This document shows positions 1 to 56,929 of a stretch of 61,843 nucleotides of DNA, one piece after another (position 1 is the first letter of the stretch; each line of letters starts with the position of its first letter). The DNA lies in the IMG/VR virus record IMGVR_UViG_3300048813_000081, positions 1 through 61,843 of that record; one strand, 5' to 3'. This DNA is from a virus. The notes under the pieces are model-generated. The model ran no database searches, was not told the origin of the DNA, and saw only the letters and a program-made list of their open reading frames with translations. Position numbers and translations under genes: made by a program.

Positions 1-1119
1 GTCGTGGTCATGAATAGTGGCGGCACTGCCCAAACGACTGTTGCCCCATCTACTAGCGGTAACGTTTTAAGTAGTAATGGTACTGATTGGACAAGTGGTG
101 CAGTGCCAGCTAGTCATCCTGCTAATTGGTTTGGTACTGGTGCTGATGGTGCAGTTACTATAGGTTCAAATACTTATTTAACTAGTTCGACAGATGGTCC
201 AGCTGTTATAAAAAACTATTCTTCTTTAACCGTTAATGCTAGTCAACTATTATCAGTGTCCAATAGATGTAAAGGTTTAATTATCTATGTCACGGGAAAT
301 TGTACAGTTAACGGCAATATTATTATGGATGCATTAGGTGCATCTGCATCAGGCTCATCGCAAACGATTTATGAATATTCCGGTCAAACTGATGGTATTA
401 CTGCTGGCGAAGGACCTCCTGTAATTAGTACTTATAATACTCCTGCTACCGGTGCCGCAGGTGGTGCTGGTGCTACTGGTGCTAATGTTGGTTCTCCAGG
501 ATCTGCTGGTAGTGCGGGCCAAGCCGGCGGCGGCGGAGGCGGTGGTGGAGTTGAAGGTAATCAAGGTAATGGCGGTCCTGGTGGCGCAGGCACATCATAT
601 GCTGGCGGTTCTGGCGGCGGCGGTGGTGCTTATTTAAATCAAACCGGCGGTACGGGTTCTAGTACGGGTGGATCTGGAGGCGCGGGCGGTTCTCCTACTG
701 TAACTACTATTGGTGGTTCTGGAGGTGGCGCGGGCAATCCGGGCGGTACTGGCGGTACAGGTAATGGATCCGGTACAACCAATGGTATTACACCAACATC
801 TGGCGGCGGCGGTGGTTATTTAGCTTTAATCGTTGGCGGTAATTTAACTATTGGTAGTAGTGGAGTCGTATCAGCTAATGGTGGAGCTGGCGGAGCTGGT
901 GGTAATGGTACATCAGGCGGTGTAGCAGGTTCCGGCGGCGGCGGCGGCGGTGGTGGTAATGTATGGATATTCCATGCGGGTACATTAAGTAATACCGGTA
1001 CAGTAGAGGCATTAGGCGGTACAGCTGGAGCAGCTGGTGGCGGTTCCGGTGTAGCATTCCCTGGTTATGCAGGCGGAGCTGGTGGAAACGGTAGCGTCAG
1101 TATCACTCAAATTCTTTAA
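1..1119 (+). CDS. Glycine-rich fibre/adhesin protein, 5' partial
   Basis: The frame is open to the left edge, so the true start lies outside the window and the first in-frame start (GTG at 4) is probably internal. From about residue 150 to the end the protein is dominated by GGAGG, GGSGG and GGGGG runs separated by short beta-prone stretches. This resembles the glycine-rich receptor-binding tips of tail fibres (polyglycine-II type), and a second glycine-rich tip occurs at the C terminus of the fibre encoded at 22563-24236. It lies upstream of two more fibre-like genes on the same strand. The fibre role is inferred from composition and position, not from homology. Confidence 0.6.
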   Translation, partial: VVVMNSGGTAQTTVAPSTSGNVLSSNGTDWTSGAVPASHPANWFGTGADGAVTIGSNTYLTSSTDGPAVIKNYSSLTVNASQLLSVSNRCKGLIIYVTGNCTVNGNIIMDALGASASGSSQTIYEYSGQTDGITAGEGPPVISTYNTPATGAAGGAGATGANVGSPGSAGSAGQAGGGGGGGGVEGNQGNGGPGGAGTSYAGGSGGGGGAYLNQTGGTGSSTGGSGGAGGSPTVTTIGGSGGGAGNPGGTGGTGNGSGTTNGITPTSGGGGGYLALIVGGNLTIGSSGVVSANGGAGGAGGNGTSGGVAGSGGGGGGGGNVWIFHAGTLSNTGTVEALGGTAGAAGGGSGVAFPGYAGGAGGNGSVSITQIL

Positions 1120-6284: not shown

Positions 6285-6761
6285 CTACTGACTTAGAAGT
6301 ATTCGACAAAAATCTATCAATTCTTCATGAGTCATAGCGCCTTTAGCCGTGTTGTATCTTTTAGACACCCACTGCAGATTACTGTATTTATAGGCTAAGT
6401 TGGGATACCTAGAAACTGGTCGAATATGGTCTAGATGTAGATTTACGCCTATCACTAAAGGTTCTTTAGTGTAAGGACAGATAGGCGATGTCTGCAAGTC
6501 CTGATGTAATTGAATAGCCAACGCCCGCATCGCTAGCCGTCCTGGATGGTATTTAACGTTCCCGCGCCGACTGCCGGAGCGTCCATTTAATAGTTGCAAT
6601 ACCCACTCTGGACCTTCTGCCTTTCGATGCTTCAAGAAACATGCTTTAGCGTAGGCGTCGGCGCAATCTTTACAAGAACTCTGTTTCTTATCTTTCGTAT
6701 GACCATGGGCACTAAATCTATCCATTGCCAAACTAAGCTTGCATTTATTGCATATTTTCAT
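6285..6761 (-). CDS. HNH homing endonuclease
   Basis: The N terminus is a zinc ribbon (MKICNKC, then CKDC about 30 residues later) and the C-terminal half carries an HNH core (CPYTKEPL, LHLDHIRPVSRYP, NLQWVSKRYNTAKG). The ATG at 6761 is preferred over an upstream TTG because the MKICxxC start is shared with the HNH protein at 28797-29225. It lies antisense inside the plus-strand head/neck operon, and its stop abuts the stop of the upstream gene, as expected for a mobile insertion. It should nick or cleave an allele lacking the insertion. Confidence 0.85.
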   Translation of the reverse strand: MKICNKCKLSLAMDRFSAHGHTKDKKQSSCKDCADAYAKACFLKHRKAEGPEWVLQLLNGRSGSRRGNVKYHPGRLAMRALAIQLHQDLQTSPICPYTKEPLVIGVNLHLDHIRPVSRYPNLAYKYSNLQWVSKRYNTAKGAMTHEELIDFCRILLSQ

Positions 6762-6830
6762 ATCTGCCAATTATCCCAGACTTTTCAGCGATTTATAACT
6801 TAAAATATACTTATATACTTGGAGATTTAC

Positions 6831-28796: not shown

Positions 28797-28816
28797 TTAT
28801 GATGCGTTTGCATTTT
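28797..28816 (-). repeat. Second copy of spike-gene 3' end
   Basis: The last bases of the HNH gene, AAATGCAAACGCATCAT plus stop, match the spike-gene end at 29222-29241 (AAATGCTAATGCATCAT) at 15 of 17 positions and in the same reading frame. The HNH copy retains the TAAGGAG that serves the downstream gene, so it looks like the original 3' end. Confidence 0.65.
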
Positions 28817-29225
28817 GTTTCTTAATTGCTCTATTATACGTTCTGATTCTATGACAATTAGCACATACTAGTTCGCATTTAGCTAATTCGTTTGCTAATT
28901 TCTCACCCGTATAACCCGTAATAACCGCATTGGAAATTTCAAATCTTTTTATACCTCTAACATGATCGAAATCCATTACACATGAAGGGTAGGTTATACC
29001 GCAATCAATACAAGGTCGGTTTTTCATGTCTTGTAATTTTTTCTTTCGTTTGAACCGTTTAAGCCTTTCATATTCATTAATTTTGATCCGATTCCTGCGG
29101 CGCCATTGCGTATCAAGTTCTTTTTTGCATACTTTACAATAATACAATCGCCCATCCCTACTGCTTGTAGAATAAGTAAATTCAGTGAGCGATTTAGTAA
29201 TATTACATCTAATACAAATTTTCAT
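28797..29225 (-). CDS. HNH homing endonuclease inserted after spike gene
   Basis: The 142-residue protein has a zinc ribbon (MKICIRCNITKSLTEF ... YCKVCKKE), a basic linker, and an HNH core (CIDCGITYP, VMDFDHVRGIKRFE, ELAKCELVCANCHRIRTYNR). Its ATG overlaps the spike stop (ATGA). Its final codons (NANAS) and about 17 bases of DNA repeat the end of the spike gene, which marks the insertion point. It is a free-standing mobile endonuclease; the spike gene end is its likely target. Confidence 0.9.
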   Translation of the reverse strand: MKICIRCNITKSLTEFTYSTSSRDGRLYYCKVCKKELDTQWRRRNRIKINEYERLKRFKRKKKLQDMKNRPCIDCGITYPSCVMDFDHVRGIKRFEISNAVITGYTGEKLANELAKCELVCANCHRIRTYNRAIKKQNANAS

Positions 29226-32790: not shown

Positions 32791-34086
32791 CTATTTATTT
32801 AATAATGATTTACAGAACTTAACAATACGATTCTGGAGCTTCGGCTTTAAAACATTCAACAGTCGTGTCCCGTCCGGAACCCCCAAGCCAGTACAACAAT
32901 CGTAACCAGTGGTAGCAGAATAGGCACCATTATTACCAGAGGTAACATCAAAAAACACTCCTGGATTTGCATACATTACATCCTTTAAATTACTCACCGG
33001 TTTATCTAGATTACTATTTAATAAAGCATTCAGTCCAGCCATCAATGGTGCTACAGCTGAAGTACCGCCTATTACCGATTGCTGTCCATCGACATCAACT
33101 ATATATCCGCTACTAGGGTCGGCGTTGCCGGCTATGTCGGGGACTTTACGACCGGATGTTGATACGCCGCCGCCGGTAGCACCTTCATTAGATAGCCACT
33201 CAGTCCATACGGTCTCCGATTTACGACTACCATCACTATTAAGAATAAGTTTCGTGCCGCCACAGGCTATCGAATAAGGCGAACTAGCAGGGAAGTCAAC
33301 GTGGTTACCAGTTTCTCCATCACTAGAGCCATTATCACCCGCAGCGACAAATACATTAATACCAGCATCAGTACAACTCTTGATAGCATTATTCATAGCC
33401 TCTTGTGCACCTGAATCCCATTGATCTTCTGGAGCACCCCAGCTATCGGAGATGCAGTTCGGTTTCTTAAAGTATGTAGCTATGTTAGAAATAGCATTAA
33501 TATAGCCATTTGTAGTATTCGGAGCAAATACTATTAGAATCTGCACTCCAGGAGCTACCGCTGCTACAACGCAAATATCTAGGGAGACCTCACCATCGGC
33601 ACCATCTGCTCCATCGGAGACGTTAGCTCCTGTAGAAAAATTATGTTGCCACATGCGTGGGTAGGCTACACCCATCGATTTACAGTAGTTCAAAACGTTA
33701 GTCGGGTTAAATCCACCGCCCAATTCTATAATGGCTACGACTTGATCTTTAATAGCTGCTGTCGGTTTAGGGAAATTATAAGCCTTGGCGACTTGCAAGG
33801 GGGTGAGAGGTGATGCCGAAGGACCGAAAAGACCACGGGTCAGATGATGTGTGGGCCGTTTATACAACCCCTCACCATGCTTATCCGACAAAATACATAG
33901 GATGTGATGACCGAATAGTTTTTTCAGGTGTGTTATGATCCCAGGATTCGAAGCTTCAAACCTGATAACTCTGTGTTCATGAAATAATGCCGCTGTTAGC
34001 TTCTTCATGCGTAGATACTTAACTATATCCAAATGAAAGCCAAGACCTGAATCTGATACGGGGCGTAGGTGGATTGAATATTTCAT
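32791..34086 (-). CDS. Sedolisin/kumamolisin-type serine-carboxyl peptidase (S53)
   Basis: The 431-residue protein has the full S53 catalytic set: Glu166 and Asp170 in DGEVSLDICV, the oxyanion Asp251 in VFVAAGDNGSSDGETG, and nucleophile Ser343 in GGTSAVAPLMAGL. SPLTPLQVAKAYNFP (residues 92-106) is the classic S53 domain start, and FFDVTSG near residue 380 fits the calcium site. The first 85 residues would be a short propeptide (about half the usual length). There is no signal peptide, so it may act in the cytoplasm, after lysis, or in the virion. S53 enzymes are acid proteases in bacteria and fungi; one in a phage accessory region is unusual. Confidence 0.85.
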   Translation of the reverse strand: MKYSIHLRPVSDSGLGFHLDIVKYLRMKKLTAALFHEHRVIRFEASNPGIITHLKKLFGHHILCILSDKHGEGLYKRPTHHLTRGLFGPSASPLTPLQVAKAYNFPKPTAAIKDQVVAIIELGGGFNPTNVLNYCKSMGVAYPRMWQHNFSTGANVSDGADGADGEVSLDICVVAAVAPGVQILIVFAPNTTNGYINAISNIATYFKKPNCISDSWGAPEDQWDSGAQEAMNNAIKSCTDAGINVFVAAGDNGSSDGETGNHVDFPASSPYSIACGGTKLILNSDGSRKSETVWTEWLSNEGATGGGVSTSGRKVPDIAGNADPSSGYIVDVDGQQSVIGGTSAVAPLMAGLNALLNSNLDKPVSNLKDVMYANPGVFFDVTSGNNGAYSATTGYDCCTGLGVPDGTRLLNVLKPKLQNRIVKFCKSLLNK

Positions 34087-34256
34087 TAATTAGAATCCTG
34101 TAATAATAGTATAGCCCGCTCTAGAATAGTATTCATTAATTTCTGCGGTTCTTCGTTAATATGCGATCCATAAGTAGATAATTCACCGACTGCTAAATGT
34201 AATGCCGTTTCTAAGAGTACAGGATCTGCTGGTTGGCATATAATATCATTACTCAT
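34086..34256 (-). CDS. 56-residue protein upstream of sedolisin
   Basis: The ATG at 34256 has an AGGAG site 7 bases away, and the stop overlaps the sedolisin ATG (TAATG). The product (MSNDIICQPADPVLLETALH... to ILLLQDSN) is helical and acidic. The tight coupling suggests a partner such as an inhibitor, but there is no sequence evidence for that. Confidence 0.5.
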   Translation of the reverse strand: MSNDIICQPADPVLLETALHLAVGELSTYGSHINEEPQKLMNTILERAILLLQDSN

Positions 34257-34331: not shown

Positions 34332-34763
34332 ATGAGAGTAACTGATTTAGCATGGGCAGCAGGAATTATTGATGGCGAAGGTTGTATACACATTAGCCGT
34401 GTTAAAGCTAGTGTGTGCAATCAAAGACAATCAGATCGCTATTCGCTTATGCTGAAATTAACTATGACACATAAAGAAACTATCGATAAATTTTATACTA
34501 TATTGCCGGGAGCTACGATACAAACAGGACAAAGACCAAACCGCAAACGAACATATACCCTGAATTACAGAATTACAAAAGCAATAGCGGCAATCAGACT
34601 CCTGTTACCCTATTTAGTCACCAAGAAAAAAGAAGCAAAATTAGCATTAAGATATGGCAATGTGCCTGCATGGCCAAGTCGATCTGGTAAGCGTCCTGCA
34701 AGTTTAACTCAATTGCGTCATACTTATTATTTATTAATGCGTAGGTATAAACATGAAAGTTAA
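34332..34763 (+). CDS. LAGLIDADG homing endonuclease
   Basis: The 143-residue protein has one LAGLIDADG-type helix, AWAAGIIDGEGCIHISR, at residues 8-24, followed by the expected beta segments (YSLMLKLTMTHKETIDKFYT, YTLNYRITKAIAAIRLLLPY). With one motif it would act as a homodimer. It overlaps the start of the downstream HDAC-fold gene by 11 bases, and both form a plus-strand island in a minus-strand region. A TTGACT/TAATAT pair lies close upstream. Confidence 0.85.
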   Translation: MRVTDLAWAAGIIDGEGCIHISRVKASVCNQRQSDRYSLMLKLTMTHKETIDKFYTILPGATIQTGQRPNRKRTYTLNYRITKAIAAIRLLLPYLVTKKKEAKLALRYGNVPAWPSRSGKRPASLTQLRHTYYLLMRRYKHES

Positions 34764-35559
34764 ATTGTTTGGAGATGTAACTCCTGTTGATTGGGCGGCC
34801 CTCAATATTCGCATGCCATTCGCTCCGATGCATGAGTTGGCAGAGAAGTATGAATTAACTGAAGTTAAGAAAAGCTACATACCTGCGCTAGAAAATAATG
34901 TTGATGATTTAGGTCATATTTTCGAAACCGATATCAATGTTTTAGATGGTAGGGAATTATTTAAACGTGTTAAATATCGTGCTAATAATACAGTCGCTGC
35001 TCTAGATCGCTGTACCCCCGACACTATCTGCATTAACCTCAACGGCGGCTATCACCACGCCGGAAAATACCCCAATACGGGATATGCGTATAGTTTAATT
35101 AACGATCACATTTGGGCTACTGACTATCAGCTAGAACGATATAACAATATCAGAATAGGCATCTGGGATAATGATTTTCACTATGCTGGTGGGACTATTG
35201 AATACTATAAGGATAGTTCACAGGTTGATGTATTTTCTGAACACGCTCCGCTTAGAGGCGTTTTATATAAACATCAACACTTAAGACAAGAGGGATTGGG
35301 CTGTTATATGTTTGACTTGAATACAGTCGATAAAGTTTTACTAAATCTAGGAACGGATTATTCTACAGAAGACGAATTATTCGGACAATATGCCTGGTAC
35401 GATCGCAGCTGGGTAATGGCTTTCTGGAAGAATACTATTATGCATGTTCTAGAACATAGAACACCTCTAGCTATAACTTTCGGCGGGAGTTATGGAGATA
35501 AGGGGATTAGTATGTACAAAGAAATTATTACTTTTTGCCAGGAATTGCCAGGACTCTAA
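34753..35559 (+). CDS. Histone-deacetylase-fold (arginase/deacetylase superfamily) protein
   Basis: Several HDAC family motifs appear in order. LNGGYHHAGKYPNTGYAYS has the His101-His102 dyad. RIGIWDNDFHYAGGTIEYY contains metal ligands Asp141 and His143 (family DxDxHHGDG). VDVFSEH corresponds to the family S.H strand. NLGTDYSTEDELFG has the third metal ligand Asp202 (family GAD...DPLG). ITFGGSYGD has the transition-state Tyr247 (family GGGGY). The second Asp of the HHGDG motif is Gly here, so the charge relay is altered. At 268 residues it is shorter than typical HDAC/AcuC proteins (300-390). It may remove acyl groups from host proteins, polyamines or nucleotides; the substrate is unknown. It overlaps the convergent HslV-like gene by 32 bases. 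Confidence 0.8.
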   Translation: MKVKLFGDVTPVDWAALNIRMPFAPMHELAEKYELTEVKKSYIPALENNVDDLGHIFETDINVLDGRELFKRVKYRANNTVAALDRCTPDTICINLNGGYHHAGKYPNTGYAYSLINDHIWATDYQLERYNNIRIGIWDNDFHYAGGTIEYYKDSSQVDVFSEHAPLRGVLYKHQHLRQEGLGCYMFDLNTVDKVLLNLGTDYSTEDELFGQYAWYDRSWVMAFWKNTIMHVLEHRTPLAITFGGSYGDKGISMYKEIITFCQELPGL

Positions 35560-36055
35560 TAACCCCACCGGTATACAGATCAAGTTCCTCAGCGACCCGA
35601 ATCGCATCCTTAGCAGTACCACCAAATGTCATAATAGCTAAAGCGAATTCTTCGCCAGAGCCGAATGCAAACGGTGCTGGTATAGGCGTTGGATCTTCCA
35701 GGCTGTGATTATATAAGAACGCTTCACCGTCATCATTAATGACTAATATGAGCCATTCATCACTCTTGGCTAGTGCTAGTTTAGTGGGTACGAATTCAGA
35801 TAACGGTTTAGTAGTCGCAAGAAAGAATTTCTTAACAGGAGCTGTAAAAGCAACATCTCCAGCAGCGGCTATTGTTGCATGTCTGGCTGGTGAATAAGCG
35901 ATTTTAGGAGCGGCAGATTGAAACTTAGTATGTCCAGATGTAGACTGACTATCGCAAGCTAGAGTTTTGCCATCGAACGCAATAGTAGTACTCCACGCAG
36001 GCATATATGAGCTTAAGGTCATAGAAACTGCTAGAAGTAATGATTTATAGTGCAT
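35528..36055 (-). CDS. HslV/proteasome-beta-like Ntn hydrolase with signal peptide
   Basis: After residue 22 the protein reads TTIAFDGKTLACDSQS, the N-terminal-threonine pattern of HslV/proteasome beta subunits. By that alignment Thr23 is the nucleophile with Asp35 and Lys51 completing the triad. Later segments fit the family (HATIAAAGDVAFTAPVKKFF, FAFGSGEEFALAIM, GGTAKDAIRVAEELDLYTGG). The first 22 residues (MHYKSLLLAVSMTLSSYMPA then WS) form a signal peptide with an A-W-S cleavage motif. Sec cleavage would therefore expose the catalytic threonine. Phage relatives I know of usually start directly at MTTI. A periplasmic or secreted Ntn hydrolase would be new. Confidence 0.75.
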   Translation of the reverse strand: MHYKSLLLAVSMTLSSYMPAWSTTIAFDGKTLACDSQSTSGHTKFQSAAPKIAYSPARHATIAAAGDVAFTAPVKKFFLATTKPLSEFVPTKLALAKSDEWLILVINDDGEAFLYNHSLEDPTPIPAPFAFGSGEEFALAIMTFGGTAKDAIRVAEELDLYTGGVIRVLAIPGKK

Positions 36056-36064
36056 AACTTATAA

Positions 36065-36919
36065 TTATACCTTAACAATTCGTAGTGCCTGCAAGATATC
36101 TTCGAATCTGCATCCCCTGTGGCAGAATAAGACGTTTTTATCGGTATTAACGCACAAGTTATTACAGGATCTGTCGAAGCCTTTGGAGGCGCAACAGGGA
36201 CACTGTCCTATTAGTTCGCCACTGCCTGATTCCTTGAACTCCCAATGTGAAGGAAATTCCGCCAAAAGGGGTGTTTTAGGTTTATTCTGTAACCGTCGTG
36301 AACGTTTTTCCACTAAAGCCGGCAGATTAGAGGCTATTGTAACTACTAAATCACCAGAATTGGGGGACTGTTGAAGAAACCAATCTAGCTGGTCATCGTC
36401 GGGACAGTCTAAGAATAACCCGCGCTGACCTGTTTTCTTGTGAACACCTAACGGTAAGCGTACTAGATTACCTAATTGTTCTGGTTTTATAGATGTTTGT
36501 TTAGGAAACGATTCTGCCTTTAGCCCTGCAAGCATGCATGCATATATTCCCATTCGATGTACCAACGCTGTAGCAACCGGTCTATCGAATAAGAGCCATA
36601 CGTGTCCCATACGACCGGGGCGTACCGATTCGCGTAAATAAACCAAATTATTAATATTAAGGTAGTGCAGAAGCCTATTAAATTCTGTTGTTTGGTGGTC
36701 ATCGTCGATATCTATGCATAAAAATTTGCTGGTATTGTTTGCTGGGCTGGTAGTGTAAATGCCTAAAGTTTGTTTCCCCGTGAAATGATCTTCTAATAGT
36801 GAATTCGTAATCGACTGTCTGATAGCTAGATAAGAGCCATTGGTTTGCTGTAGCCCGTGGGCGTTCGGGTTACTTTGAAACCTCTCCAGGAACTGCCTCT
36901 CTCTGCCTATCACGCTCAC
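36065..36919 (-). CDS. Archaeo-eukaryotic-type (AEP) primase with C-terminal zinc finger
   Basis: The GTG start gives 284 residues. FLCIDIDDDH (Asp70, Asp72) is the AEP metal-binding motif, GRMGHVWLLFDRP holds the motif II histidine (His106), and LGNLVRLPLGVHKKTGQRGL matches the TOTE/phage AEP subgroup. The C terminus has a zinc-binding cluster (CPCCASKGFDRSCNNLC ... CHRGC). It makes primers for replication and probably works with the SF3 helicase encoded 20 kb away at 55427-56929. It overlaps the upstream gene by 50 bases. Confidence 0.8.
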   Translation of the reverse strand: MSVIGRERQFLERFQSNPNAHGLQQTNGSYLAIRQSITNSLLEDHFTGKQTLGIYTTSPANNTSKFLCIDIDDDHQTTEFNRLLHYLNINNLVYLRESVRPGRMGHVWLLFDRPVATALVHRMGIYACMLAGLKAESFPKQTSIKPEQLGNLVRLPLGVHKKTGQRGLFLDCPDDDQLDWFLQQSPNSGDLVVTIASNLPALVEKRSRRLQNKPKTPLLAEFPSHWEFKESGSGELIGQCPCCASKGFDRSCNNLCVNTDKNVLFCHRGCRFEDILQALRIVKV

Positions 36920-38064: not shown

Positions 38065-38175
38065 TTAATTCTTATCCAACTTCAAGCATCGTTTCAAATG
38101 ATCACGATAATTTCGCTTCTGAAAACTTACTATGAATAGCATTGCTAGGAATACGCTACCGAAGAATTTAGCCAC
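38065..38175 (-). CDS. 36-residue membrane protein coupled to endolysin
   Basis: A GTG at 38175 with a CAGGAG site starts VAKFFGSVFLAMLFIVSFQK, a transmembrane helix followed by a basic tail (RNYRDHLKRCLKLDKN). It overlaps the endolysin end by 8 bases. A short membrane protein coupled to an amidase is a good candidate for a lysis accessory (small holin or pinholin-like). Confidence 0.45.
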   Translation of the reverse strand: MAKFFGSVFLAMLFIVSFQKRNYRDHLKRCLKLDKN

Positions 38176-38875
38176 GTTTGATACTCCTGCCGGTAATCTT
38201 ACGTCCACGGGGTTTGCGCGTTTTAACTGGAGATGGTGACAGATTGTCACCGACTGCCGATAATTCGATAGTTTTAACTGCGCTGATGGCTAAGTCTTGC
38301 ACTGTCTGCTGTAGATTACCTGTTACTGCTAACGGTCTAACCGGTGGAGGGCTAGATATACTGGGTTTTAATAAATCACTAACCATACTTCGAAACTGCA
38401 TCCATGGGAAAAACATACCTGGATCTTGGTGGTTGTTCCCAAATTGCCTTAAATAAGGATCGCTATGTCCGATGACATTCTGAAGTGGAATATTAAATTT
38501 CTGCATTAAAGCAGCCACTAACTGTACTACGGAGGTTAATTCTGGATTAGTTAGCCAGCCCTTATCGCGCAAGCAGCCATCTGATAAGTTTCCTGCTATG
38601 GGATATCGATCAACCATTTCGATACCTATACAGAAGGGATTTGCATTGCATACGTGCCAAGCGGTATCTACTAATTGAACCATCTGAGTAATAGAACCGT
38701 CTCTATCAATCACGTAGTGAGCCGATACCTGTGCGATAGTGTTCTGAAAGGTAGCTATCGTGCCTTGTAAGGTGCCTAGCGGGCAGTGCAGGACTATATG
38801 CGTAATCCTATCCGCATTACGACCCGCGCGAAAATTTGGTGATTTAATAAATCTAATAGTCGATAAGTCAATCAT
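38168..38875 (-). CDS. N-acetylmuramoyl-L-alanine amidase (endolysin)
   Basis: The 235-residue protein is an Amidase_2/PGRP enzyme: THIVLHCPLGTL with Zn ligand His30, SAHYVIDRDGSITQMV, TAWHVCN, FCIGIEMV with the acid Glu87, and VIGHSDPYLRQFGNNHQDPG with His137 and Asp151. It cuts the bond between muramic acid and the stem peptide. After residue 165 there is a linker with PPPVRP and a strongly basic tail (KTRKPRGRKITGRSIKRG), which may help cross or disrupt the outer membrane. No signal peptide is seen, so a holin is needed. Confidence 0.9.
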   Translation of the reverse strand: MIDLSTIRFIKSPNFRAGRNADRITHIVLHCPLGTLQGTIATFQNTIAQVSAHYVIDRDGSITQMVQLVDTAWHVCNANPFCIGIEMVDRYPIAGNLSDGCLRDKGWLTNPELTSVVQLVAALMQKFNIPLQNVIGHSDPYLRQFGNNHQDPGMFFPWMQFRSMVSDLLKPSISSPPPVRPLAVTGNLQQTVQDLAISAVKTIELSAVGDNLSPSPVKTRKPRGRKITGRSIKRG

Positions 38876-38928: not shown

Positions 38929-39786
38929 ATGAGAGCATTAATTCTTCCCGGCGGGGGAGCTAGGGGAATTCTACAAACCGGTATGTACGCTGCTTACCTA
39001 GAACAGTACAAAACGTACGATTTTATATGCGGTACTTCTGTAGGTTCTTTAAATGCGATTTTTATAGCCCAGAATGAAATGTTTAAGATGCTAGAGTTGT
39101 GGAGGCATATTAACAACTGCGATGTATTTACATGGAACCTACTTAACGCATTCGGACCGAAGGGCAGTCTGATGGATATAACGCCTTTAGCTGCTTTAAT
39201 TCACCAAACCTTAGATATCAATAAATTAAAACAATCAGGCAAGCCATTCTACGCCTCTACGACCCGGATTAACCCATTAGCCGCTGTCACTAAGAATATC
39301 TGCAATATGACCCAGGAGGAAGCTGAAAAGTGGGTCTTAGCATCAGCTAGCGCACCCATGGCATTCCCGGTACAAGTAATCAACGGCAAACAGTACTCAG
39401 ATGGTGGATTAACCAGGAATTTCGGCATATCTCATGCTATAGCACTGGGTGCTACTGATATCGTCGTTCTATGCTGTGGTGCTATGAATTCCTCTGATGT
39501 TAAAAACCTATTCGATATGATTAAGTTGCAATTATCTGTGCAGTCCGCAGCACAATTTACCGATGAAACCGAACTGGCTCAAATATTAAATAAATCTCAA
39601 CATACGGTATCGCTGACGGTATACAAGCCAGACAGCATAGATTTGAAACAATTGGACTTTACTGGAGCCAGTAGAAACTATAAGAAATATTACGAACAGG
39701 GTTATAATATTATGAACAAACCAGCTTTACAGTTTCGTAAGGTTGCTCAAACAGGTATGCAACCCCGCTGGCAGGTATTTCATTAA
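38929..39786 (+). CDS. Patatin-like phospholipase
   Basis: The 285-residue protein carries all patatin motifs: LPGGGARG oxyanion loop (residues 7-13), GTSVG with nucleophile Ser37, and YSDGG with Asp158 of the catalytic dyad. Patatins cleave acyl chains from phospholipids. It is fused by a zero-base junction to the portal gene (TAA then ATG), so it is expressed with packaging genes. It might act in lysis, in envelope modification, or in the virion at entry. No signal peptide is present. Confidence 0.85.
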   Translation: MRALILPGGGARGILQTGMYAAYLEQYKTYDFICGTSVGSLNAIFIAQNEMFKMLELWRHINNCDVFTWNLLNAFGPKGSLMDITPLAALIHQTLDINKLKQSGKPFYASTTRINPLAAVTKNICNMTQEEAEKWVLASASAPMAFPVQVINGKQYSDGGLTRNFGISHAIALGATDIVVLCCGAMNSSDVKNLFDMIKLQLSVQSAAQFTDETELAQILNKSQHTVSLTVYKPDSIDLKQLDFTGASRNYKKYYEQGYNIMNKPALQFRKVAQTGMQPRWQVFH

Positions 39787-44571: not shown

Positions 44572-44683
44572 GTTTGTACCCCCTTAATTTATTAGCAGCT
44601 AGTAGTGTTAATAAACGACCGAATTCATCCTTCCGAAATAAACCGCCTAGAGGTACGGTGAATGCGCGATTAATTATGAGCAT
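44564..44683 (-). pseudogene. Orphan C-terminal fragment left by GIY-YIG insertion
   Basis: This 39-codon frame (MLIINRAFTVPLGGLF... ending GYKRG) matches the last 33 residues of the 65-residue protein at 45377-45574 at about 18 positions (VPLxxLFxK..FGxLL..L.A.K.R.YKR). The GIY-YIG gene lies exactly between the two copies. The fragment also contains the ribosome site of the next gene. It therefore looks like the original 3' end of the interrupted gene, with the upstream copy supplied by the element. Confidence 0.65.
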
Positions 44684-45380
44684 ATGCTCTCTTGGGTCTA
44701 GAAGCTGCTTCAATTGGATTCCATCCTCTACGAATTCTGTCTCTGCATATTTTATTGGTTACTATATTAAACAATTTTACTAATTGAGTCAAATTATATG
44801 AATTATTATTGTGGTCAAACAATCGTTTACAGTGAGAGTAGCCTTCCTGTTTTCTTTGAATCCAATCTTTAGAGTTGCCTTTAGCGATAGCTGATTTATG
44901 TGCTTGGGATAATTGGCGACCGGTAAATAATTGAGATAGTTGTAGTTTTTGCGTATCGCTCATTTTGCGACCCTTATGAGCTTTAGATATTTTTAATTTA
45001 GATTCTAAGGTATGAGCATATCCTGGACGACCTTTATTTATAAGAGATAATTTACGTTTCGTTTCTTCCGATCGTTTAACACCCCTAGGGCTCCCGGCAG
45101 TAAAACTAATATTAAAATCGATGGTACGATTTAATACGTTATCTAAATACCACTGCTCTCTTGTAATACAGTCTTCAGGTAAGCATTCTTCTAATACTTC
45201 AAATCTGAATTGATCAGCACCGTACTTGTTCCAAGAACGTTGTAATAAAATATTCCAATGTTTATTCGCATTTAAGCTTGCCTTATGTGCTCTCCATCGT
45301 TGTTTTAAATTAGTCGCACTACTGCCTATGTAGCATTTATTATTAACTAAATTTGTAATTTTATAAATACCAGTACTCAT
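44670..45380 (-). CDS. GIY-YIG homing endonuclease with NUMOD3 repeats
   Basis: The 236-residue protein begins GIYKITNLVNNKCYIGSSA (GIY...YIG) with the downstream RWRAHK arginine and FEVLEECLPED glutamate of the catalytic module. The middle has NUMOD3 DNA-binding repeats (GVKRSEETKRKLSLINKGRP, KAHKGRKMSDTQKLQLSQLF, SQAHKSAIAKGN). The last 45 residues (YNLTQLVKLFN...RIRRGWNPIEAA) are shared with the two HNH proteins at 49908 and 51923. The ATG overlaps the upstream stop (ATGA). It is inserted at the 3' end of the 65-residue gene. Confidence 0.9.
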   Translation of the reverse strand: MSTGIYKITNLVNNKCYIGSSATNLKQRWRAHKASLNANKHWNILLQRSWNKYGADQFRFEVLEECLPEDCITREQWYLDNVLNRTIDFNISFTAGSPRGVKRSEETKRKLSLINKGRPGYAHTLESKLKISKAHKGRKMSDTQKLQLSQLFTGRQLSQAHKSAIAKGNSKDWIQRKQEGYSHCKRLFDHNNNSYNLTQLVKLFNIVTNKICRDRIRRGWNPIEAASRPKRAYAHN

Positions 45381-47894: not shown

Positions 47895-49868
47895 TTATTT
47901 AACTCCTTGTAGGACGGTATTTGTATAAGCTTCTGGATTGTTAACATGCAACTTATCTACTGCTGCACGAACTCTAACTGGATCACCAGATTCTAGTTCT
48001 GCCTTGACGGATTTTCTGACTACATTACGGGCGAACTTTTCGGCTTCTTCGTCTGACAACACTTTAGGTGTGCCGTCGTCGTTTTGCATACGACCTGATT
48101 TAGCGAAGGATACCATTGATTCAAATTTATCTGGAACCATAGCTTGAGCTGCTGCTTTCTGCTCATCAGTGCCATTCTCTAGGACTGCAGCTACACGTTT
48201 ACGAATTACACCGGCTGCATAAGCTTCAGGACTGGTGATTTCTGGCTTATTTGCTACGACATAAGCAATGACTTCTTCGATAGTGCCTGATTCGTATACT
48301 GCGTTTACCGCTCCAGACTTACCATTCTTCTTAAGTTCTTCGCGCTTTGCTAATGTTTCGTCAGCCTTCTTAATAGGATTTGGAACATCTTTGCGCTTGG
48401 AGAACATTACTATAAGGTCTTCACGTGAGCCGTTGAAGTATATGTCATCATTAGCTTTCTTCTCAGCTAATTTTTTATCAGCCCAGGCTTCTGGGTTAGC
48501 CCAGCCTTTTTCAGTTGCAAAATTTATGAAGTCTTCTCTAGTTCGTAACATACGATATTTCTCCCGATTTAATATTTTTTGGCAGTGTTCTTTTATTAAC
48601 TGATTGGCACTTTCAATAGTTATACACTGAAGCTGTTCAAATAGCACCTTAAATGATTTTAAATTTTGCTTAAACACTTTCCCGCAAATGGGACAAATCA
48701 TTGCCCGTTTCTTGACATAATTACCACACGTCAAACAGAGTCGTAAGTCAACACCAGCTATAGTATCGCGCTTTGTACGCGTCCCGTAATCATCTAAAGT
48801 CCATGACCTTCGTATCCATGGTGGTCCATGCTGCCCTACATTATTAACATGATCAATTAATATAGCTGGTTCATTATCTTCAGTTGGACGAAGTACACGA
48901 CCTATTTGTTGTAAATATACAATTTTTGATTTAGTAGGGCGCAGGAATATACCGCACTTTGCGCCGGGGAAATTATACCCTTCAGTCAATATATTCGCCG
49001 ACATGACACATTTAATTTGTCCTGTTTTAAACTGCTGCAAAATTGTTCGACGTTCAGTATCAGACAAGCCGCCATCTATACCGGAGGATGGTATGCCGTT
49101 ATCATTAAATAATTGTACGGTTTCGTATACGGATCTAACGTTTGGACAAAATACTAATGTAGGTTTTCCACCGCTTAATGTACGATAATGCTCAATCACA
49201 TCACCAAATATAACCTTTGAGTTGTCATCGAACCATTTATTGATAGCCTTTGGGTTGTAATCACCGCCTATAACATCCCAATCTTGACGATTCTGCTCTA
49301 CCAAAGCTGCTGTTTTGGATGGTATGTATAATTTGGGTTTAGCTAAGTATCCTTGCTGAATTAATATTTCAATAGACGGACCTTCAATTAGAATATCGAA
49401 ATTTTCGCGTAATGGTTTGCGATCAGTCCTGCGTGGCGTGCCACTTAATCCTAATATTTTTGCTTTATTATTAAAACACCTTGCATAACTAGATGCATTA
49501 CTTCGATGGCATTCATCGACGATAACTAGTGAGGGAGTAGGTAAAGTATCTAATTTCTTTCTAGCCAGAGTTTGAACCATGCATACGTATGTGTTTGCAG
49601 AAGGATCGTATGGATACTTGGAAGCTATATAGCTATGGGGTATCTGGGCTTCAGCAAGATAATCGGATACTTGTTGGCATAATTCCCGAATATGCACCGT
49701 AAAAAATACAACTGCTTTCGGATTATGTTTATGCAGTTCTTGAATGAGCGACATTGCAATATGAGATTTACCCGCGCCAGTAGCAAGCTGAAGCAGTACT
49801 CTGTCGTGCGACTTCCAGGCATCACATATTTGCTGAATTAGATTTAATTGATAGTCACGCAATTGCAT
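47895..49868 (-). CDS. SF2 (DEAD/DEAH-type) DNA helicase
   Basis: The ATG at 49868 (MQLRDYQ) is preferred over a GTG 6 codons earlier because family members start at this Q motif. Motifs run in order: LQLATGAGKSHIA (I), LVIVDECHRSN (II), ILGLSGTPRR (III), LVFCPNVRS (IV), ILTEGYNFPG (V) and LQQIGRVLRP (VI). Residues about 370-400 hold a four-cysteine zinc finger (CLTCGNYVKKRAMICPICGK). The remaining 250 residues are helical and acidic, with no motif I recognise. It may remodel origin or recombination DNA. Confidence 0.9.
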   Translation of the reverse strand: MQLRDYQLNLIQQICDAWKSHDRVLLQLATGAGKSHIAMSLIQELHKHNPKAVVFFTVHIRELCQQVSDYLAEAQIPHSYIASKYPYDPSANTYVCMVQTLARKKLDTLPTPSLVIVDECHRSNASSYARCFNNKAKILGLSGTPRRTDRKPLRENFDILIEGPSIEILIQQGYLAKPKLYIPSKTAALVEQNRQDWDVIGGDYNPKAINKWFDDNSKVIFGDVIEHYRTLSGGKPTLVFCPNVRSVYETVQLFNDNGIPSSGIDGGLSDTERRTILQQFKTGQIKCVMSANILTEGYNFPGAKCGIFLRPTKSKIVYLQQIGRVLRPTEDNEPAILIDHVNNVGQHGPPWIRRSWTLDDYGTRTKRDTIAGVDLRLCLTCGNYVKKRAMICPICGKVFKQNLKSFKVLFEQLQCITIESANQLIKEHCQKILNREKYRMLRTREDFINFATEKGWANPEAWADKKLAEKKANDDIYFNGSREDLIVMFSKRKDVPNPIKKADETLAKREELKKNGKSGAVNAVYESGTIEEVIAYVVANKPEITSPEAYAAGVIRKRVAAVLENGTDEQKAAAQAMVPDKFESMVSFAKSGRMQNDDGTPKVLSDEEAEKFARNVVRKSVKAELESGDPVRVRAAVDKLHVNNPEAYTNTVLQGVK

Positions 49869-49907
49869 AGTAATATGATAGGTCACTTGTTTGAATTTGA
49901 ACTAATT

Positions 49908-50393
49908 ATGAGTAAAAATAAACCACATGGTAACCAGCGGCATGGATTAAGTCATCATCCAATACATAGATTATGGGATGGTATTAAGCATCGTTGTAAT
50001 AATTCCGATTCTCAGGATTACCATAACTACGGTGGACGGGGAATTACTGTTTGCGATAAATGGAATAATAGTTTTGAATTATTCTATGAATGGGCAATCA
50101 ATAATGGTTGGCAGACTGGATTGCAGATTGATAGATATCCTGACAACAATGGCAATTATGAACCAAACAACTGTAGATTTGTTACTTCTAAAGAAAACAA
50201 TAACAATAGGAGAAATAATATCAAAATTCAATATGGTGATAATTCATACAGTTTATCTCAATTAGTGAAACATTTTAATTGTGTTAGTTATGGAACCGCG
50301 AAAGAAAGGATTAGAACTTATAACTGGGATACCATCAAAGCTTGTTCTACTCCTGCGGGACAATATGTGCATCGTAATCAGTATATGGAGTAG
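49908..50393 (+). CDS. HNH homing endonuclease (GGRGI type)
   Basis: The 161-residue protein contains HGLSHHPIHRLWDGIKHRCN, YHNYGGRGITVCDKWNN, GLQIDRYPDNNGNYEPNNCR and FVTSKENNNNRRNN, an HNH-superfamily arrangement, and ends with the YSLSQLVKHFN ... RIRTYNWDTIKA DNA-binding module. It is a close paralogue of the 51923 protein. It lies divergently between helicase and small minus-strand genes. Confidence 0.85.
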   Translation: MSKNKPHGNQRHGLSHHPIHRLWDGIKHRCNNSDSQDYHNYGGRGITVCDKWNNSFELFYEWAINNGWQTGLQIDRYPDNNGNYEPNNCRFVTSKENNNNRRNNIKIQYGDNSYSLSQLVKHFNCVSYGTAKERIRTYNWDTIKACSTPAGQYVHRNQYME

Positions 50394-51761: not shown

Positions 51762-51948
51762 TCAGAAAAAACATATGCCTACGGCTGCTGATTTAATTCA
51801 TGACATACATGATATATTGCAAAACTTTGAATCGCGCATAAATAGTTTAGAAGAAAACCAGAAACTGGTTTTTAGTAGTGTGATTGATTTGCAGAATAGA
51901 GTTAGTTTGTTGGAGGGTGAGGATGAGTCGACCACATCAGGGTCCTGA
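51745..51948 (+). CDS. Small coiled-coil protein
   Basis: The product (67 residues from 51745, or 57 from an ATG at 51775) ends in a heptad pattern (DILQNFESRINSLEENQKLV, then VIDLQNRVSLLEGE). Its last codons overlap the start of the inserted HNH gene, so its C terminus (DESTTSGS) may not be original. Confidence 0.45.
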   Translation: MLLPGDQKKHMPTAADLIHDIHDILQNFESRINSLEENQKLVFSSVIDLQNRVSLLEGEDESTTSGS

Positions 51949-52579
51949 TTTAGCAGGACAAACATTCGGTCGATATACCGTTATCGAACGTGCTCATTTG
52001 GATAAATCAAGAGAACGGCACTGGTTATGTAGATGTGAATGCGGTACTATAACGTCCTCACCTTCTACATCATGCCTGAAAAGTGGACAAGCTAAATCCT
52101 GCGGTTGCTTGCACAAAGAAATTGTAGCTGATCAAATGCGTATTCGGGCTAGAACGCATGGATTATCCAAACATCCAATTCATAAATTATGGTTTAAGAT
52201 TAAAGAACGTTGTTATAATCCGAATTGCCAATCATATCCTATTTATGGTGGACGGGGTATTGCTATGTGTCAAGAGTGGTTGGATAATTTCCAAACATTC
52301 TACGATTGGGCTACTAATAATGGCTATAAACGCGGTTTGCAGATTGATCGCTTCCCCGATCAGAGTGGTAATTACGAACCGGGCAACTGTAGATTTGTTA
52401 CCAGCAAGGAGAATAACCGTAATCGGCGGGATAATGTTTATTTAGATTATCAAGGAAAGAGGTATTCTTTACCAGAATTTATAGAACTATTTGGTGCTGT
52501 TAAAGCTGACTGCGCTAGATTACGTATCCGACGTGGATGGAATCCATTACAAGCTTGTTTGGAGCCTAATCGTAGATGA
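51923..52579 (+). CDS. HNH homing endonuclease (GGRGI type) with extra N-terminal domain
   Basis: The ATG at 51923 has a GGGTGAGG site. Residues 1-65 form a zinc-ribbon-like module (FGRYTVIERAHLDKSRERHW, CRCECGT, CGCLHKE). The rest parallels the 49908 protein: HGLSKHPIHKLWFKIKERCY, YPIYGGRGIAMCQEW, GLQIDRFPDQSGNYEPGNCR, FVTSKENNRNRRDN, then YSLPEFIELFG ... RIRRGWNPLQAC. Its stop overlaps the next ATG. It is a free-standing mobile endonuclease inside the nuclease operon. Confidence 0.85.
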   Translation: MSRPHQGPDLAGQTFGRYTVIERAHLDKSRERHWLCRCECGTITSSPSTSCLKSGQAKSCGCLHKEIVADQMRIRARTHGLSKHPIHKLWFKIKERCYNPNCQSYPIYGGRGIAMCQEWLDNFQTFYDWATNNGYKRGLQIDRFPDQSGNYEPGNCRFVTSKENNRNRRDNVYLDYQGKRYSLPEFIELFGAVKADCARLRIRRGWNPLQACLEPNRR

Positions 52580-53924: not shown

Positions 53925-54108
53925 AAGAATAGAAAAATATTTTGATATCCTGTATCCCGATAGCATACTATCACTACGGATGATAGACAATGCTCAAGAA
54001 TTCTTAGCAGCATATCCTTTCTTCGGTCCTACGGTAGATTATCCAGTATACAGTCCTGGTGATGAGGTAGACGGCTCAGGGGAGGCGCTAGGTGTCGGTG
54101 ACAATTAA
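53911..54108 (+). CDS. Unknown acidic protein
   Basis: The start at 53911 follows a GGGGGG stretch (53905 is an alternative). The 65-residue product contains RIEKYFDILYPDSILSLRMI and FLAAYPFFGPTVDYPVYSPG and ends acidic. The following HNH gene overlaps its last codons. Confidence 0.4.
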   Translation: MSDSERIEKYFDILYPDSILSLRMIDNAQEFLAAYPFFGPTVDYPVYSPGDEVDGSGEALGVGDN

Positions 54109-54631
54109 AGGACAAACATATTGTTCCATTAGGACGCAGTTTCCTGATTTCCCTGGATTAACACAGATCCCAGGATATCCTGGTTATTATGCTAAGGAAA
54201 ATGGCGACATCTATGCATCGCGACGTAGTTATATGCCCAAGTTGTTGCACTATTATTTGAGTCCCAAAGGATATCATGTTGTAGATCTTTATAATAATTG
54301 GCAACGCAAAACAGTAACTGTCCATAAACTGATAATGTTAACATTTATAGGATCTAGGCCAGATGGGTTGAATGAAATTAGACATTTGGATGGCAATAAA
54401 GCAAATAATCATTTATCCAATTTGAAGTACGGAACATCCCAAGATAATGCAGACGATAAGAAACTGCATGGAACGTGTTACAAATCATTTGCTAAATGTC
54501 ATCCCGACCGTCCATTAGTAGGGAATGGTTTATGTAACTATTGCTATCAAAAACAATGGGCTTTACAAAACATAGAAAAAGTGAGAGAGTCTAAACGGGC
54601 TTACCAACTGAGGCGGAAACAACTAGCATGA
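54092..54631 (+). CDS. HNH homing endonuclease with NUMOD4 domain
   Basis: The start is a GTG with a GGGGAGG site. The 179-residue protein has a NUMOD4-type segment (IPGYPGYYAKENGDIYASRR), an HNH_3 core (TVTVHKLIMLTFIGSRPDGL, EIRHLDGNKANNHLSNLKYG, TSQDNADDKKLHGT) and a late zinc knuckle (AKCHPDRP ... CNYCYQKQ). Its start overlaps the upstream gene and its stop overlaps the next ATG, so it is fitted exactly into the operon. Confidence 0.9.
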   Translation: MSVTIKGQTYCSIRTQFPDFPGLTQIPGYPGYYAKENGDIYASRRSYMPKLLHYYLSPKGYHVVDLYNNWQRKTVTVHKLIMLTFIGSRPDGLNEIRHLDGNKANNHLSNLKYGTSQDNADDKKLHGTCYKSFAKCHPDRPLVGNGLCNYCYQKQWALQNIEKVRESKRAYQLRRKQLA

Positions 54632-55051: not shown

Positions 55052-55427
55052 GAACATAGCTAAAGAGGCATTTAAGCGCCATACTATTCCCATTCAGACG
55101 CTGAAACTATTTAGCAATGTGCGCGGGAAGCTGTGGGCAGGACAGCCTATGACTCTTCGTGACGGTATGATTACATTAAAATTCCCCAGGAGATTAGATG
55201 TCGGTCTGCACGATGGCATGCCTGACCAGATAGGGTGGCGACAGATAGAGATTACACCAGATATGGTGGGCACCGTGATAGCACAGTTTACAGCTGTAGA
55301 ACTTAAACGTTTCGATGGCAAAGGTAAGATTACAGCAGAGCAAATAGATATGATTAATCTTATAAATAACCAGGGTGGATACGCTAAACTGGTAGATAGC
55401 GAAGAATCTATGAGGGAGTATTTCTAG
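55035..55427 (+). CDS. VRR-NUC nuclease
   Basis: The GTG at 55035 has a GGGAGG site and is preferred over the upstream frame inside the previous gene. The 130-residue protein has the VRR-NUC core: HDGMPDQIGWRQIEIT with Asp64, AVELKRFDGKGKITAEQI with Glu89, Lys91 and Gln103, then INNQGGYAKLVDSEE. Such stand-alone VRR nucleases cut branched or flap DNA and often neighbour SF3 helicases in phages. It overlaps the SF3 helicase start by one base. Confidence 0.8.
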   Translation: MLKTPENIAKEAFKRHTIPIQTLKLFSNVRGKLWAGQPMTLRDGMITLKFPRRLDVGLHDGMPDQIGWRQIEITPDMVGTVIAQFTAVELKRFDGKGKITAEQIDMINLINNQGGYAKLVDSEESMREYF

Positions 55428-56929
55428 TGAGTTTAAAACCTCCGACTGGCGATTGGTTCTGGGATTTGGAAAATTATCCGCCAGCTAAGCTTTACATGAA
55501 TAAATCAGCACAGCGTTTAATGGGACCACCATTGATTGCGCAATTTCTTGCTAAACTTATGCGTAATGAATATGGCTACATTAACGCCAGCAAGATCTGG
55601 ATGCATTTCAATGGGCAAGTATGGGAAGAAATAGCATCAATATTTAACGTTATCAGAACCGCTGCTGAAGATATAAGAGATGCTTATCGCAAGAAAGCAC
55701 TTGAAGATGAAAACTGGAAAAAAAATATAGATAATGGTTTTGCTGGGCTGGATAGTCTATTAACTCAGAACTTTGCACATCTAGTAATCAAAAACTTAGA
55801 ATCTGATACTACTATGCATCGCAAAGAAAGTGATTTTGATAGAGATAGTCACTTATTCAATATGCCTGGGCAAATTAGACAGTTAAAAACAGGAGAGTAT
55901 TTTCCTAATAGAGCAGATTACTTATGTAGACAGATAGCCGCTGTAAATCCATTGGATGATATGGACGGCGAACGATGCCCATATTACATGAAACATCTGA
56001 AATTCATGGCTGAAAATGATCCTGAAGTGATTGAATATCTAGAAAAATTATCTGGTTATATTCTCTCAGGCGATGTTGGTGCAATGAATTTTTACTGGAT
56101 GTACGGCAGGGCTAATAATGGTAAATCCACATTAGTTAATATCTGGGCACATATTCTAGGAGGATTAGAACCGACTAGTTATTTCTGGCAAGCAGAATCA
56201 GATTTATTTGCTAAAACTAATACAAAACACCATCCACAAGCTATTATGCGTTTGCGCGGAAAACGATTAGTCTTTGTTGACGAATTAGATGGTCAAGAAT
56301 GGAATGGCAAGTTTCTTAAAGGCTGCATATCCGGTAGCGCATTAAATGGTCATGAAATGGGCGGTAAGGGAGTTAATTTTAAGCCGGTCTTTAAATTGAT
56401 ATTTACTAGTAATCATAAGCCTACTGTTAACGCGAATGACGGCGGCGTTGTGCGTAGACTGCATCTTATGGATTTTGTGAATCAAATACCAGAAACCGAA
56501 CAACTAGATAGTTTTATGGAAAGATTTTTGATACCAGAAGCTCCGTATATTTTAAATAGAATGCTCAAGGCTGCTAAGATAGTATTGAACACTGAAAAAT
56601 GCAAATTAGCATTACCTGAAAAATTCAAAGAAGCCACTACTGAATATTTTGGTGATGCTGATTTTATACAGCAATTTATTGATGACTGTACTGATACCGG
56701 TGAAGCTTGCACTGAATCTTATAGTTTATTATATAAAACGTATAAAACATGGTGCATGGAAAACGAATATGACACTATGACTTCTAAGAAGTTTGGTGAT
56801 TTATTGCGCGATATGGGGCATAAATCAATTAAGATTAATGGTTTGAGATATCGCAAGAAGATACAATTAAATCAAAGATGGAAGGCTAAATCAAATAATT
56901 CAGTACACATAAACAGTGAATATAACTAA
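55427..56929 (+). CDS. SF3 (D5/P4-type) replicative helicase
   Basis: The GTG start gives 500 residues. A D5-N-like region precedes the ATPase: MYGRANNGKSTLVNIWAHIL (Walker A, about residue 225), RLVFVDELDGQEWNGKFLKG (Walker B), FKLIFTSNHKPTVNANDGGV (sensor 1 / motif C), and VVRRLHLMDF with the arginine finger. A C-terminal winged-helix-like segment (YKTWCMENEYDTMTSKKFGD) follows. Unlike many P4-type proteins there is no primase domain; that role is filled by the separate AEP primase at 36065-36919. Confidence 0.9.
   Translation: MSLKPPTGDWFWDLENYPPAKLYMNKSAQRLMGPPLIAQFLAKLMRNEYGYINASKIWMHFNGQVWEEIASIFNVIRTAAEDIRDAYRKKALEDENWKKNIDNGFAGLDSLLTQNFAHLVIKNLESDTTMHRKESDFDRDSHLFNMPGQIRQLKTGEYFPNRADYLCRQIAAVNPLDDMDGERCPYYMKHLKFMAENDPEVIEYLEKLSGYILSGDVGAMNFYWMYGRANNGKSTLVNIWAHILGGLEPTSYFWQAESDLFAKTNTKHHPQAIMRLRGKRLVFVDELDGQEWNGKFLKGCISGSALNGHEMGGKGVNFKPVFKLIFTSNHKPTVNANDGGVVRRLHLMDFVNQIPETEQLDSFMERFLIPEAPYILNRMLKAAKIVLNTEKCKLALPEKFKEATTEYFGDADFIQQFIDDCTDTGEACTESYSLLYKTYKTWCMENEYDTMTSKKFGDLLRDMGHKSIKINGLRYRKKIQLNQRWKAKSNNSVHINSEYN

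Follow-up and report, generated by a model that had tools for sequence, protein, structure and literature searches.

A phage-borne S53 (sedolisin) peptidase with a small predicted N-terminal domain in place of the Pro-kumamolisin domain

Introduction

Sedolisins, with their large prodomain, are a textbook case of zymogens, and a phage gene that encodes such an enzyme without a recognizable one raises the question of how its product is folded and kept in check. Zymogens of peptidase family S53 are activated at low pH, and their prosegment serves both folding and inhibition (PMC6278154, PMC2914745). Core-only fungal S53 paralogs have also been mentioned (PMC6278154); a large prosegment is usual for the family rather than part of its catalytic definition.

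The locus lies in positions 1 to 61,843 of IMG/VR virus record IMGVR_UViG_3300048813_000081, the whole stretch of 61,843 nucleotides analyzed here and referred to below as the window. A phage family that lacks the prodomain, or has in its place a domain a third as large, would allow the prodomain's part in folding, inhibition and secretion to be tested directly. Such a family might also yield small acid proteases expressible without a prodomain, and it would be a sign that phages of acidic habitats use a proteolytic step, late-stage or in the virion, that has yet to be studied.

Identification and catalytic features of the window sedolisin

An earlier note, made from the sequence alone, had described an S53 peptidase and an overlapping upstream frame of 56 residues; both open reading frames are present (Table 1), and the family assignment is borne out. 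Against the PDB, phmmer matched the protein to kumamolisin (1gt9, E 6.9e-80) and kumamolisin-As (1e-78), and more weakly to sedolisin (3e-16) and TPP1 (1e-8). Its AlphaFold2 model (pLDDT 88.9) superimposes on kumamolisin 1gt9 with an rmsd of 1.2 Å over 324 aligned residues (Z 52.5), and on sedolisin 1nlu with Z 45.2. The catalytic set that the note had read as intact aligns with that of kumamolisin, and Glu166, Asp170, Asp251 and Ser343 are invariant across an alignment of 51 viral and bacterial relatives, in which none has been lost. Likewise, both side-chain ligands of the calcium site, Asp380 and Asp396, are kept; the loop preceding them is shorter than in kumamolisin. Membership in S53 is secure because homology, invariant catalytic residues and superposition of the model on kumamolisin agree, and the enzyme is very probably catalytically competent.

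Compared with kumamolisin and kumamolisin-As (MEROPS S53; PDB 1gt9, 1t1e and 1sio), the catalytic domain is about 45–50% identical and shares the Ser-Glu-Asp set, the oxyanion Asp, the accessory Glu and Trp (Trp216 aligning with kumamolisin Trp129) and the calcium Asp pair. Unlike them, the window protein has no prodomain of ~185 aa, no P-x-W-Q loop and a few residues fewer before the calcium site. Nor is it secreted: no hydrophobic N-terminus or signal peptide was found, in keeping with the earlier reading.

Table 1 Features of the sedolisin locus in the window
Feature	Position	Strand	Basis
S53 (sedolisin/kumamolisin-type) serine-carboxyl peptidase, 431 aa	32791..34086	(-)	phmmer + AlphaFold2 model
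N-terminal mini-domain, residues 1–67, predicted ferredoxin-like	33886..34086	(-)	AlphaFold2; conserved in L086 and L087
Linker, residues 68–91	33814..33885	(-)	Alignment + model
Sedolisin catalytic domain, residues 92–415	32842..33813	(-)	VIA-align ranges 89..415 on kumamolisin structures
Glu121, accessory (kumamolisin Glu32)	33724..33726	(-)	Alignment
Glu166, catalytic (kumamolisin Glu78)	33589..33591	(-)	Alignment
Asp170, catalytic (kumamolisin Asp82)	33577..33579	(-)	Alignment
Asp251, oxyanion hole (kumamolisin Asp164)	33334..33336	(-)	Alignment
Missing P-x-W-Q loop site, residues 310–312	33151..33159	(-)	Alignment vs 79 cellular S53s
Ser343, nucleophile (kumamolisin Ser278)	33058..33060	(-)	Alignment
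Asp380-Val381, calcium site (kumamolisin Asp316-Ile317)	32944..32949	(-)	Alignment
Asp396, calcium site (kumamolisin Asp338)	32899..32901	(-)	Alignment
56-aa ORF, orphan	34086..34256	(-)	Own ribosome site AGGAG; 1-nt overlap TAATG
LAGLIDADG/HNH-type endonuclease ORF	34332..34763	(+)	Pfam LAGLIDADG_1 E 1.3e-5, PHROG 5046 E 1e-19

Conservation within the mini-domain clade

Two further viral loci, L086 and L087, encode proteases 56 and 61% identical to that of the window, with which they form one clade (support 100). The start residue is identical in all three, each placed behind an AGGA(G) ribosome site. Among the three genes, dN is 0.32–0.36 (0.36–0.40 for the mini-domain) with saturated dS, and codon positions 1 and 2 are 64–78% identical compared with about 40% at position 3. 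Purifying selection acts on both the mini-domain and the catalytic domain. The 56–61% protease identity is close to that of tail genes in the same block (61–73%) and above that of the terminase (49%) and primase (41–43%). Both relatives retain the gene block in order, with a divergent deacetylase-like gene adjoining the protease; their records, of 30 and 72 kb, are possibly fragments. A terminase-based pattern search of IMG/VR for relatives returned none.

Structural features of the N-terminal region

The catalytic domain begins at about residue 92, and the length of about 85 residues given earlier for a short propeptide is about right; the N-terminal part is unrecognizable by sequence as an S53 prodomain. 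No match of the window N-terminus to PF09286 (Pro-kuma_activ) was obtained up to E 10, nor any other relevant Pfam match. Aligned by hhalign over 31 columns, the mini-domain and the S53 prodomain give a probability of 0.5%, and in both directions the HMM scores are no better than those of shuffles. A MAFFT alignment made it tempting to read the mini-domain as a trimmed Pro-kumamolisin domain, a reading dropped on these values, and because of them homology between the two is not claimed. A six-frame search of the whole window revealed no trace of a canonical prodomain, either in trans or frameshifted.

Modeled alone with AlphaFold2 (3 sequences, pLDDT 69.9), the mini-domain is predicted to consist of strand 3–7, helix 15–27, strands 32–35 and 40–45, helix 49–61 and strand 62–67, and the same beta-alpha-beta-beta-alpha-beta elements reappear in the full-length model. 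The linker that follows opens with HGEGLYKRPTH, conserved in L086 and L087 as HGEGxYKRP, and is predicted to be disordered (pLDDT under 50 at residues 69–88). No relatives bearing the mini-domain were found other than L086 and L087.

The ferredoxin-like fold is very common, and matches of the mini-domain alone to PDB folds are weak and unspecific (best Foldseek E 0.04). Among them is the I9 inhibitor POIA1 (E 0.15, TM-score 0.51 by target length). Subtilisin propeptides and I9 inhibitors (POIA1, 1itp, 1v5i) share with the mini-domain its predicted order of elements, its size and its place before a subtilisin-fold enzyme; there is no sequence match to set beside the weak fold match.

The mini-domain occupies the position where relatives have the Pro-kumamolisin domain. 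On pro-kumamolisin 1t1e, 365 residues of the model align, starting from residue 37 (Z 54.0), compared with 324 on mature enzymes. A gain of 41 residues is what docking of the mini-domain close to the prodomain's place would give, a position that is itself predicted. Its location ahead of a subtilisin-fold enzyme, together with purifying selection, points to a propeptide-like role, and we infer a foldase/inhibitor function: the mini-domain is most likely a folding aid that also covers the active site until cleavage.

Distribution of the prodomain among viral and cellular S53 peptidases

That S53 peptidases are rare in phages, as the earlier note had remarked, is confirmed. A motif scan of IMG/VR returned 42 S53 loci, about 34 of them non-redundant, and tblastn with three different viral S53 queries found no sedolisin in cultured phages (0/50,697 phage records). 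A prodomain HMM built in this study was positive in 5/5 bacterial controls and, among the viral loci, only in L088 and L098. Six-frame searches up to 10 kb on either side of the viral S53 genes gave no trace of a canonical prodomain encoded in trans or lost by frameshift. Most viral S53s have a leader of 13–60 residues similar to the sequence that immediately precedes the mature enzyme in bacteria, as in viral IIAHAASVSYTPRQVAKAY vs bacterial ARTHAASVSYTPVQVAELY.

The S53s of other uncultured viruses (L002–L005, L089–L123) resemble the window protein in being phage-borne and, in nearly all cases, in missing the canonical prodomain; unlike it, they have no mini-domain, mostly begin with such a leader, and many end in Thr/Pro-rich C-terminal tails. 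In L002, L003, L090, L091, L092, L097, L108 and L110, C-terminal Thr/Pro-rich linkers are accompanied by a small conserved unit, VVTGxxxVTVDGKxV. Five others (L115, L116, L117, L118 and L120) display a CxxC-type zinc-ribbon-like N-terminal stretch where the prodomain would be. At high fold score, the only named viral S53-like entries in BFVD are the sedolisins of soil giant viruses (Homavirus, Barrevirus, Terrestrivirus and Sylvanvirus; E 7e-43 to 3e-17), which are 521–972 aa long and not from phages; phage entries lower in that listing are more distant subtilisin-like matches.

The closest cellular kin, at 39–49% identity, are S53s of Acidobacteriota, Rhodanobacter and Bacteroidota, represented by the best 80 of 329 genome relatives (L006–L085), a choice that biases the cellular side of the tree to close kin. 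Unlike the window protein, 78 of these 80 have an N-terminal region of 140–295 residues ahead of the catalytic domain; in one exception, L052, the start lies inside prodomain-like sequence. Genome samples run to offset the bias (199 Acidobacteriota and 398 Pseudomonadota genomes) placed all 30 of 30 strong S53 matches in frames of at least 527 aa. The sole prodomain-less S53 among the best 80 of 329 genome loci is L035:4953-6107. Its contig is binned to an uncultured archaeon, but the protein falls among the viral S53s and its gene adjoins one for a lysin-like glycoside hydrolase; the contig is probably viral or a provirus. Plasmid S53s of Curtobacterium, whose long alignments to query residues 1–416 suggested short-prodomain kin, were ruled out by their signal peptides and a prodomain-type sequence ending in VLGLDQRP.

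The open-access literature searched yielded no paper on sedolisins of phages. The enzyme family itself is known; phage S53 lineages that lack the canonical prodomain seem not to have been described, and neither does the mini-domain clade.

Gene neighborhood and proposed biological function

The protease gene is co-directional, on the minus strand, with an amidase endolysin gene (38168–38875) and with genes for an HslV-like peptidase, a primase, the baseplate and the tail. Elsewhere, viral S53 genes neighbor tail-fiber genes (L089), an endolysin-holin gene (L093) or the glycoside hydrolase gene of L035. Neighbors of this kind are no proof that the gene is expressed late or that its product enters the virion. 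As for the host, the window portal and baseplate J proteins match, among cultured phages, only those of Komagataeibacter phages (27–31%), and an Acetobacter phage is among the many matches of the terminase. Komagataeibacter are acetic-acid bacteria. At 27–37% identity, these matches give a hint of a host from acetic-acid or other acid habitats.

The reading that we prefer, tentatively and at slightly less than even confidence, is that of a late-expressed protease that is pH-gated and works extracellularly, the mini-domain serving as its minimal foldase and inhibitor. Encoded among the late (lysis/tail) genes of a tailed phage, this kumamolisin-type endopeptidase would be made in the cytosol, having no signal peptide. 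The Ser-Glu-Asp and oxyanion-Asp chemistry of S53 needs protonated carboxylates, so the enzyme would be nearly silent at cytosolic pH. It would become active only where its environment is acidic, whether following lysis or within the particle, and its targets outside the cell would be envelope, surface or debris proteins. With pH already as a safeguard, a phage enzyme could dispense with the large inhibitory prodomain that secreted bacterial sedolisins carry; most phage S53s would have retained just a piece of linker, and the window clade would have kept or re-acquired the 67-residue ferredoxin-like domain and the conserved linker peptide. Acid gating, the extracellular or virion site of action and the substrates are all features that we infer. 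In a broader form, the proposal holds that tailed phages own deep sedolisin lineages without the prodomain that is regarded as necessary for folding and inhibition, with pH-gating instead of zymogen control, and that the mini-domain of the window clade is an independent, minimal ferredoxin-like foldase/inhibitor domain without homology to the S53 prodomain; we consider this possible but rather doubtful.

A virion-borne enzyme for entry, in which a tail or baseplate component digests host surface proteins (S-layer, pili or outer-membrane proteins) during adsorption and the mini-domain serves docking or assembly instead of being a propeptide, would suit a gene that lies directly upstream of co-directional baseplate and tail genes and is conserved much as structural genes are. 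The tail-fiber genes beside other viral S53s fit this too, as does the small C-terminal unit that many of them carry along with Thr/Pro-rich linkers. However, the window protein contains no known tail domain, the other clades are without the N-domain, so that a common docking domain is missing, and endolysin and holin neighbors suit lysis equally well. We regard entry as unlikely to be its role.

An intracellular protease with a regulatory, anti-defense or maturation function, acting at neutral pH on cytosolic phage or host substrates, is improbable. The missing signal peptide and the closeness of the gene to those for the primase and the HslV-like peptidase would agree with it, but S53 peptidases are active at acid pH (PMC6278154) and the protein has no match to defense-related models. 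A prohead protease was also considered and dropped, since about 29 kb separate the gene from the major head gene (3093–4493).

The upstream 56-residue ORF

The earlier note had suggested that the 56-residue protein is a coupled partner of the protease, serving as its inhibitor or chaperone. The overlap it described is real: in TAATG, the stop of the small ORF and the start of the protease have one base in common, and with the good ribosome site this suggests co-translation. RNA structure at the overlap is no more stable than in shuffles. The full records of L086 and L087, which are syntenic and keep the protease, do not encode the protein, and it is absent from four further viral S53 records that were searched. 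No relative was found in IMG/VR (pattern search) or in cultured phages, and Pfam, PHROG and NCBIfam gave no match. An ORF with no detectable relative that is missing from both L086 and L087 does not support the idea of a partner; it is probably not dedicated to the protease, and a coupled inhibitor or chaperone is highly improbable.

The gap between the protease gene and the divergent deacetylase-like gene, about 76–150 nt in the relatives, holds the 56-residue ORF and an endonuclease ORF (Table 1) in the window; the latter is missing there in L086 and L087.

Loss of the P-x-W-Q loop

Neither the unlikeness to the S53 prodomain nor a deletion within the catalytic domain had been reported in the earlier note. 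The deletion sits between GGGVS and GRKVPD and has removed 15–23 residues. In all 79 of the 79 cellular S53s measured, GGGVS is followed by 18–26 residues containing P-x-W/Y-Q; this segment after GGGxS is a criterion devised in the present analysis and not a published S53 definition. At the same site, 3 residues are left in the window and L086, and 5 in L089, L093–L096, L099 and L101, while L087 has 17 that are unrelated. An assembly error is ruled out by the same loss in L086 and other viral clades. That the deletion has left an inactive pseudo-protease or a decaying gene is scarcely credible: the loop of all cellular relatives measured is indeed gone, but the catalytic residues are invariant, selection is purifying, L086 and the other viral clades with the same loss retain every catalytic residue, and the model is confident on both sides (pLDDT 90 and 97 for blocks 301–310 and 311–320).

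Other genes of the window

The HslV/proteasome-like peptidase is encoded at 35528–36055 (-) in the window, at L086:8329-8907 and at L087:6522-7064 (PHROG 1040, E 2.5e-27). It has an apparent signal peptide with likely cleavage directly before Thr-Thr (AWS/TT, CLA/TT, AYC/TT), and export following the predicted cleavage would expose the catalytic Thr. Signal peptides go unmentioned in a paper on phage homologs of the proteasome (PMC8665760).

The histone-deacetylase-like protein (window 34753–35559 (+), L086:8946-9851 (-), L087:7042-7902 (-); Pfam Hist_deacetyl E 2e-10) carries conserved GGYHHAGKYP and DxDFHxxGGT motifs, and its gene is always divergent from that of the sedolisin. A patatin-like phospholipase at 38929–39786 (+) resembles effector phospholipases of PADLOC defense systems (E 4e-13); its gene is missing from L086 and L087, which are otherwise syntenic. 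An archaeo-eukaryotic primase of TOTE/PrimPol type is encoded at 36065–36919 (-) (Pfam AEP-TOTE E 2e-23), and a P4-family primase/helicase at 55427–56929.

ORFs resembling homing endonucleases, with HNH, GIY-YIG or LAGLIDADG motifs, occur at 6285–6770 (-), 28797–29225 (-), 44670–45380 (-), 49848–50393 (+), 51884–52579 (+) and 54092–54631 (+), all recognized by eye, and next to the protease locus in the ORF listed in Table 1, recognized by profile; they suggest that the phage genome has been heavily invaded by homing endonucleases.
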